Source: Candidatus Bathyarchaeota archaeon
GTDB lineage: Archaea > Thermoproteota > Bathyarchaeia > 40CM-2-53-6
NCBI GenBank assembly: GCA_005888755.1
Contig: VBBQ01000025.1
Location: 1 to 64,000, forward strand
Direction of reading: 5' to 3'
DNA: 64,000 bases
Part shown: positions 20,736 through 32,491 of the stretch, one piece after another
How the letters are laid out: each line of letters begins with the position of its first letter
Position numbering within the stretch: the first letter of the stretch is position 1
Translations under genes and position numbers: made by a program
The notes under the pieces: generated by a model
The model's input: only the letters and a program-made list of their open reading frames with translations
The model's database searches: none
Told to the model about the DNA's origin: nothing

Positions 20736-20850
20736 TGGTGCGGGAGGTGGGATTCGAACCCACGAACCCCTACGGGACAGGCGCCTCAGGCCTGCGCTTC
20801 CACGACCCTTGATCGAAAGGGTCTCTTTGACCTGGCTTGGCAACTCCCGC
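20736..20850 (-). tRNA. tRNA-Leu(GAG) with a 27-nt intron in the D arm
   Basis: Acceptor GCGGGAG (20844-20850) pairs with CTCCCGC (20740-20746), then A and an encoded CCA. Anticodon arm CAGGC-CTGAGGC-GCCTG, anticodon GAG; variable arm TCCCGTAGGGGTTC; T arm GTGGG-TTCGAAT-CCCAC. The D arm is broken by 20798-20824; removing it restores GCC...GGC and an 85-nt tRNA. The insertion has a perfect 7-bp inner helix GACCCTT/AAGGGTC flanked by bulges AGA and AAG, consistent with a relaxed BHB at a noncanonical position near 23/24. Confidence 0.9.
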
Positions 20851-31443: not shown

Positions 31444-31500
31444 AACCTTTGTTCATAGCAAGCGGATCGTTTGCAACTCCTCGTAAGTCTTAAGACAGTG

Positions 31501-31586
31501 CCACCGTAGGGGTTAGAATCAACGGGCGCGTGAGTGGTGCCTTCCACCCGTTGCGCCATACAAACCCCGGAGTAGGGAGGCAAAAA
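31501..31586 (+). promoter_or_regulatory. structured 5' leader, candidate riboswitch
   Basis: Upstream of the ECF-S-like gene. P1 GGGGTT (31509-31514) pairs with AACCCC (31563-31568); inside it, P2 CAACGG (31520-31525) pairs with CCGTTG (31548-31553) and P3 GTGG (31534-31537) with CCAC (31544-31547). GGCGC (31525-31529) could also pair with GCGCC (31553-31557). The ribosome binding site GGGAGG (31576-31581) follows directly, so ligand-dependent folding could mask it. It matches no riboswitch class I know. Confidence 0.5.
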
Positions 31587-32285
31587 ATGCACGCATGGAA
31601 TAGAACAGGTCAGACTCGTGTCACAACAATAGAACTAGCGCTAACCTCGACTCTCGCCGCTGTCTACATTGTTTCAGCATTCTTCGCCCTTACCCCGTTT
31701 ATCGGTGGCCCGGGTTTTATCACACTAGAAATCGTTATGCTCCCGATCGTAGCTTTCCTACTCAGGCCAATTCTCGCCACGGTTGCCGTCCTCGTCGGTA
31801 GCATAGGGTCAGCATTCATCCAGACAGGCTTCTACTCTACCTTTGGGTTTGCAGGACTATTGATTCCACTACTGGCCGTTGCGCTAGGGAGCATTGCCTT
31901 CCACTACGAATGGGGAGCAATCATTCCATGGGGGTACGTCTTGGCAGGCGCCGTCTACTATGTCCTATTCTCAAAAGGAGGAACTCTCTTTTGGCTAGCA
32001 CCATATACCCTCGTGATAGCCTCCCTGCCAGCGGCGCTAAGAGTCAGAGAACCATACCGGCTAGGTCTACTCGCCCTTTACACAGCAATGTCCGAGCAGG
32101 TGACATTGAATGTCCTCAGCATTTCGCTTCTGAATCTCACAGGAGCCTTTTGGACGGGCGTTACACCCCTCATGTTCCTTGAACGAACAATAGCGACCCT
32201 TGGAGCCTTCGCGGTCATCGTCGCCCTTAAATCCCGACTTGGAACAAGACTCGAACTAGGACACGTCCTGAGGGAGGTGAAGTAG
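31587..32285 (+). CDS. ECF-transporter S-component-like membrane protein
   Basis: A 232-residue protein with about six hydrophobic segments resembling vitamin-binding S components of energy-coupling-factor transporters (GGPGFITLEIVMLPIVAFLLRPILATVAVLVGSIGSAF). I chose ATG 31587, which has GGGAGG 5 nt upstream; the track start GTG 31530 falls inside the leader hairpins. The ligand is unknown; no ECF ATPase lies nearby, so shared energising modules would be elsewhere. Confidence 0.7.
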   Translation: MHAWNRTGQTRVTTIELALTSTLAAVYIVSAFFALTPFIGGPGFITLEIVMLPIVAFLLRPILATVAVLVGSIGSAFIQTGFYSTFGFAGLLIPLLAVALGSIAFHYEWGAIIPWGYVLAGAVYYVLFSKGGTLFWLAPYTLVIASLPAALRVREPYRLGLLALYTAMSEQVTLNVLSISLLNLTGAFWTGVTPLMFLERTIATLGAFAVIVALKSRLGTRLELGHVLREVK

Positions 32286-32290
32286 AAGGC

Positions 32291-32491
32291 ATGTGCGTTA
32301 CAGCAGTAGTGAAATGTTGGCACTGTGGAGAATGGTTCGCAAAACAGGCTGACCGTGGTGAGTTCGAAAACTGCCCGTTCTGTGGAAAGGGCTTCGAACA
32401 ACTCAGCGTTGAGGCACAACGGGCTGTAAAAGCGACCCTTGCGCCATTCTTCGAAGTGCCTCATCTGAAAGAGAGACCCCTCACTGCATAA
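32291..32491 (+). CDS. small zinc-ribbon protein
   Basis: A 66-residue protein with VVKCWHCGEWF and NCPFCGKGF, a CxxC-x15-CxxC zinc ribbon. It starts 5 bp after the ECF-S-like gene, so it is likely co-transcribed. Function unknown. Confidence 0.75.
   Translation: MCVTAVVKCWHCGEWFAKQADRGEFENCPFCGKGFEQLSVEAQRAVKATLAPFFEVPHLKERPLTA

Follow-up and report, generated by a model that had tools for sequence, protein, structure and literature searches.

A modified base of archaeal tRNA is made from 7-deazaguanine. The closest described regulatory systems are the preQ1 riboswitches, for which a 2024 review distinguishes three classes without mentioning archaea and describes sequestration of the Shine-Dalgarno (SD) sequence as common; the same review gives preQ1-I for bacterial phyla only (PMC11625349). 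As of 2021, the fluoride riboswitch was the only natural archaeal riboswitch determined experimentally (PMC8241225). Among open-licence papers, we found no archaeosine riboswitch, preQ0 riboswitch, or class-IV preQ1 riboswitch. According to the queuosine field, 7-deazaguanine transporters are still missing (PMC5372724, PMC11130926).

The window analyzed here, a 64,000-nucleotide stretch of DNA from a soil Bathyarchaeia genome (G000), carries at positions 31525 to 31583 a 59-nt RNA element which contains the SD and is 5'-adjacent to the ATG at 31587 of a gene encoding an ECF-S-like membrane protein. We deem this element almost certainly a real and widespread cis-regulatory RNA and, on comparative sequence grounds, probably a riboswitch for 7-deazaguanine that represents a new structural class, with ligand binding predicted from its structure and gene context. 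An initial annotation of this DNA had proposed a riboswitch ahead of a vitamin-transporter-like gene. The placement before the SD and ATG of the ECF-S-like gene was correct, and the riboswitch guess gains support from covariation and from the lack of a match to any known RNA family, with the secondary structure corrected as described below and ligand binding remaining the predicted part. The wording "vitamin-transporter-like" can be narrowed, since the identical leader type precedes genes encoding QueT (the preQ1/preQ0 S-component) and QueE. The conserved architecture consists of helix P1, the internal loop GUGA/CCGUU, helix P2, and a hairpin loop which pairs with the SD (Table 1), and its consensus reads GGCGS-GUGA-GUGG(g)-nCCU-(c)CCAY-CCGUU-SCGCC-(A/U-rich)-AAACCCCGG(A/U)GU-GGGAGGn. 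Most instances lie just 0 to 8 nt from the start codon, and the position of the TATA-like box predicts a transcription start only a few bases 5' of P1.

Table 1. Coordinates of the leader element, its probable promoter, and the gene that follows, numbered along the window
Feature	Position	Strand	Remarks
Probable archaeal TATA-box region (aagtcttaagac)	31482..31496	+	Conserved AAGTCTTAAA in genus leader alignment A1; putative promoter role
P1, 5' strand GGCGC	31525..31529	+	55/55 cells pair within the genus; compensatory GC/CG, UA, and AU across the phylum
Internal loop, 5' side GUGA (candidate ligand pocket)	31530..31533	+	Nearly invariant in alignments A2, A3, and A5
P2, 5' strand GUGG	31534..31537	+	100% of cells paired in the 46-sequence alignment; 43/44 in the same-gene genomes
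Hairpin-loop GCCU, anti-SD strand of the pseudoknot	31539..31542	+	4/4 bases pair with the SD in 98/120; compensatory changes
P2, 3' strand CCAC	31544..31547	+	All cells paired in the 46-sequence alignment
Internal loop, 3' side CCGUU	31548..31552	+	No variation in alignments A2 and A5; replaced by CCGAU or CUGCU in some divergent copies
P1, 3' strand GCGCC	31553..31557	+	Pairing conservation and covariation
Conserved AAACCCCGG tail	31562..31570	+	AAACCCC retained in most divergent variants as well
SD GGGAGGC	31575..31581	+	AGGC (31578-31581) is the pairing partner of the hairpin loop
ECF-S-like membrane protein, 232 aa (proposed 7-deazaguanine S-component)	31587..32285	+	Swaps with QueT under a common leader; homologue beside QueC in G511

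The folding energy of the window element is unremarkable (z = -1.0), and the case for a conserved structure therefore rests on comparison. All four pairings listed in the initial annotation are possible in the window sequence, but only two of them are conserved among the 11 genomes carrying the same gene (the window's included), whose relatives share 51 to 94% protein identity and whose leader is nearly invariant. GGCGC/GCGCC, offered there as a merely possible pairing, is the true P1, paired in 55/55 cells, and the GTGG/CCAC helix is the true P2, paired in 43/44 cells; the GGGGTT/AACCCC and CAACGG/CCGTTG helices pair in just 32/66 and 45/66 cells, respectively, and were rejected. Compensatory changes in homologues, a check which that annotation had called for, were found in both P1 and the loop-SD pairing. 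P1 features both-sided changes at three pairs, a result reached by 0 to 2 of 500 shuffles while slid controls gave no double changes, and the same picture was repeated in a separate alignment test. P2 varies on one side only (GU for GC) and is thus backed by conservation and not by compensation. Full 4-bp pairing between the loop nCCU and AGGn' of the SD is seen in 98 of 120 instances; the variable loop-SD pair forms in 97/117, versus 75 +/- 3.5 in shuffled sets, with 0 of 20,000 shuffles reaching the observed value. When the pseudoknot is included, double changes occur at six pairs, versus 2.7 +/- 0.9 in shuffled and 0 to 1 in slid alignments; the shuffle tests ignore phylogeny and the pairing columns were picked by rule, shortcomings offset in part by the slid controls and by the divergent instances. 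In the latter, the pairing is kept with other letters: UCUC/GAGA in Methanosuratincola, GCUCCG/CGGAGC, and UUUCCGA/UCGGAAA, where no SD is recognizable. High sequence conservation renders much of the core uninformative for covariation. The leader thus displays what is generally expected of a riboswitch, namely, a covarying conserved RNA structure in the 5' leader and an expression platform coupled to the fold through the compensated loop-SD pairing, with coupling of this platform to a ligand predicted.

Two further candidates were not retained. Close relatives keep a CCC/GGG hairpin beside the SD, but some divergent variants keep CCCC and lose GGG (CCCC...CGGAGC), so that we do not count it as core. 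A leader-encoded peptide with an in-frame GTG start was rejected because the leader length varies out of frame.

At E <= 1, a first covariance model, built from 11 leaders, found matches in 192 of the class's 257 genomes (best E, 6e-20), most of them far below this threshold and usually one per genome. The second model, built from 46 diverse sequences, matched 87 of 397 genomes of the phylum, families outside the class among them; it scores the window element at 80.4 bits (E = 4.8e-19), and its only other match in G000 is weak (E = 0.32). Scanning all GTDB species genomes for the exact pattern returned 102 stretches, nearly all from Bathyarchaeia, while matches outside this class include Methanomethylicota, metagenome-assembled genomes (MAGs) labeled "Thaumarchaeota/Nitrososphaerota," and one Asgard MAG. 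Exact-pattern or regex matches in Alloalcanivorax, Henriciella, Streptomyces, and Saccharopolyspora are followed by neither QueT nor QueE and look like chance occurrences. One motif-QueT locus (L202, MHDC01000015.1), titled "Microgenomates group bacterium RBG_16_45_19," is probably a misbinned archaeal contig. The Rfam scan, likewise suggested in the initial annotation, gave no match to any known RNA family: the window element had 0 matches, with no preQ1 family even at E <= 10, and ten diverse homologue loci had none at E <= 1. Nothing was found when phage records were searched by BLAST with the motif.

For the 123 distinct pattern matches in the loci analyzed, the next gene encodes a QueT-like protein in 101 cases, a window-type protein in 12 (11 genomes), and QueE in 6, the remainder being one contig end and three chance bacterial matches. 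Representative QueT proteins score well above the cut-off of PF06177; for representative QueE proteins, the QueE models are the best match yet fall below the strict cut-offs, and the other QueE assignments are based on similar N-termini. QueC or GAT-QueC comes next in several motif loci, in the order motif-QueT-QueC in Methanomethylicia (L267, L269, L271, and L279), in Bathyarchaeia (L272), and also in G023, G025, and G028, or as QueC-family genes following motif-QueE (L184 and L116). By annotation or linkage, all the motif-linked genes belong to 7-deazaguanine (preQ0/preQ1) metabolism, and the genes downstream (QueT, QueE, and QueC) are the transport and synthesis genes expected under a preQ1 riboswitch, their regulation being suggested by position. 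When the 30 best QueT loci were taken by protein score alone, 25 had a motif match, one of which (L232) belongs to the neighboring gene; the motif was present in 0 of 11 paralogous S-component loci. A few QueT genes have no motif (L204, L210, L215, and L233).

Several loci depart from the common arrangement. Upstream of QueT in L225, there is only a weak match (E = 0.13), and this leader may contain a strongly diverged copy of the motif or a different element. G069 and G071 to G073 (e.g., L232) carry paired QueT genes about 1.2 kb apart, only one of which is preceded by the motif. An extra motif copy in a QueT genome (G017:C44, L274) lacks a long open frame 3' of it; a degenerate or frameshifted S-component may lie there. 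In the window's genus, a paralogous second S-component family (L013, L014, L016, and L021 to L023) lies 3' of a conserved small gene and is without the motif.

The window protein itself belongs to no Pfam or NCBIfam family; Pfam returned 0 matches at E <= 10, so that the QueT model PF06177 is unmatched as well. Alignment of its profile to archaeal QueT with hhalign gave a probability of 51%, suggestive at most, and its AlphaFold model is weak (pLDDT, 60), with RibU and BioY appearing in Foldseek among insignificant matches only. We read the role of the gene from its genomic association, that is, the leader it has in common with QueT, mutual exclusion, and QueC adjacency. Across the genus and its sister genus, the window-type gene is present in 11 genomes and QueT in 8, with an overlap of 0 and both under the same leader; the chance of this exact split is about 1e-5, assuming that the genomes are independent. 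G511, from a different family of the phylum, carries a variant motif followed by a homologue 38% identical to the window protein and then by a QueC-family gene. In light of these associations, the window gene is likely to encode a new S-component for a 7-deazaguanine base and is a candidate for the missing transporter. A small zinc-ribbon protein gene lies 3' of it at 32291-32491 (+), and relatives of this small gene adjoin the window-type gene in L004, L009, and L011 (read on the reverse strand), making it a likely operon partner.

G000 encodes an archaeosine-type TGT that scores above the family cut-off. QueC was not found in this genome, where partial matches reach about 25 bits versus at least 200 bits for the genuine QueC proteins that other families in the order have. 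The genus mates searched likewise have TGT and lack QueC, except for one incomplete genome without a TGT match. Since TGT is kept and QueC absent, G000 should rely on preQ0 import. A PTPS-family gene in G000 was not counted as QueD, as it sits among riboflavin-type genes. Elsewhere in the window, at 20739-20850 (-), a tRNA match of 112 nt has a length that suggests an intron.

The element most likely operates as a translational OFF riboswitch sensing a 7-deazaguanine, with the control direction and the ligand predicted from the arrangement of its parts. An abundant 7-deazaguanine base would occupy a pocket that the GUGA/CCGUU internal loop builds together with the AAACCCC tail, and would stabilize the pseudoknot between the P2 hairpin loop nCCU and the SD AGGn'. 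The SD would then be hidden, ribosomes would be kept from initiating, and the base would no longer be imported or synthesized, whereas with scarce base the SD would be free and the S-component translated. As ligand, preQ0 is the most probable, with preQ1 or the archaeosine base as possible alternatives; preQ0 is favored over preQ1 because archaea make archaeosine from preQ0 (PMC5485725).

The same structure, SD pairing, and gene set would be seen if the leader were the site of a regulatory protein, such as the archaeosine TGT, some other tRNA-modifying protein, or a ribosomal protein, which represses when free of substrate, so that the RNA senses no metabolite. Invariant internal loops also occur in protein-bound RNA elements. 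However, the regulon comprises only genes of 7-deazaguanine uptake and synthesis, usually with one copy per genome as in known preQ1 riboswitches, and the compact, pocket-like core persists across Thermoproteota and in one Asgard MAG; we thus regard a protein site as unlikely. The possibility that the riboswitch is real but responds to a different ligand (another purine or a vitamin), the S-component being only QueT-like, draws on the window-type S-component matching no family; moreover, we know of no measurement of the substrate specificity of archaeal QueT. It is nonetheless very unlikely given that QueE, whose 7-deazaguanine product is fixed, is under the same motif and that QueC is repeatedly next in motif loci.

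At the DNA level, the arms GGCGGGTGAGTGG...CCACCCGTTCCGCC form an imperfect inverted repeat just 3' of the TATA-like box and might constitute the operator of a transcription factor. Against this stand the asymmetry of the conserved GUGA/CCGUU internal loop, the covariation of the loop-SD pairing, which lies outside the palindrome, and the short distance to the start codon (mostly 0 to 8 nt), making an operator extremely improbable.

Returning to the 7-deazaguanine riboswitch, we lean slightly toward considering it an archaeal fourth structural class, whose ligand would be preQ0 or the archaeosine base and not preQ1. It would serve three gene families, among them an S-component of no described family which replaces QueT in part of the genus, and would range over most of the class Bathyarchaeia, Methanomethylicia, Nitrososphaeria-related lineages, and one Asgard MAG. 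Few natural riboswitches have been validated in archaea, and this element is widespread, compact, and linked to an archaea-specific tRNA modification. It suggests how archaea without QueC could regulate preQ0 uptake, and the ligand hypothesis is directly testable.

Compared with known systems, the element differs from the Thermococcus fluoride (crcB) riboswitch in ligand, structure, and genes, although both are archaeal. Like preQ1-II, found in queT/COG4708 leaders of Bacillota, it precedes queT and is a compact pseudoknot with the SD in the fold (PMC11625349), but its consensus is another one, it is archaeal, it is found ahead of queE and a new S-component as well, and it has no Rfam match. 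With preQ1-III it shares the position upstream of queT and the pseudoknot; the expression platform of preQ1-III is far from the aptamer (PMC11625349), whereas in the present element the hairpin loop pairs directly with the SD, and the model gives no match. The preQ1-I riboswitch (compare PMC11625349) consists of one hairpin, the loop of which pairs with a 3' tail overlapping or bordering the SD, with an A-rich stretch after P1, a design which the element resembles; unlike preQ1-I, it features an extra P2, the GUGA/CCGUU loop, and the C-rich AAACCCC tail, again with no Rfam match. The mechanism proposed here therefore resembles that of the SD-sequestering preQ1 riboswitches, while the RNA itself, by model search, lies outside the preQ1 Rfam families.
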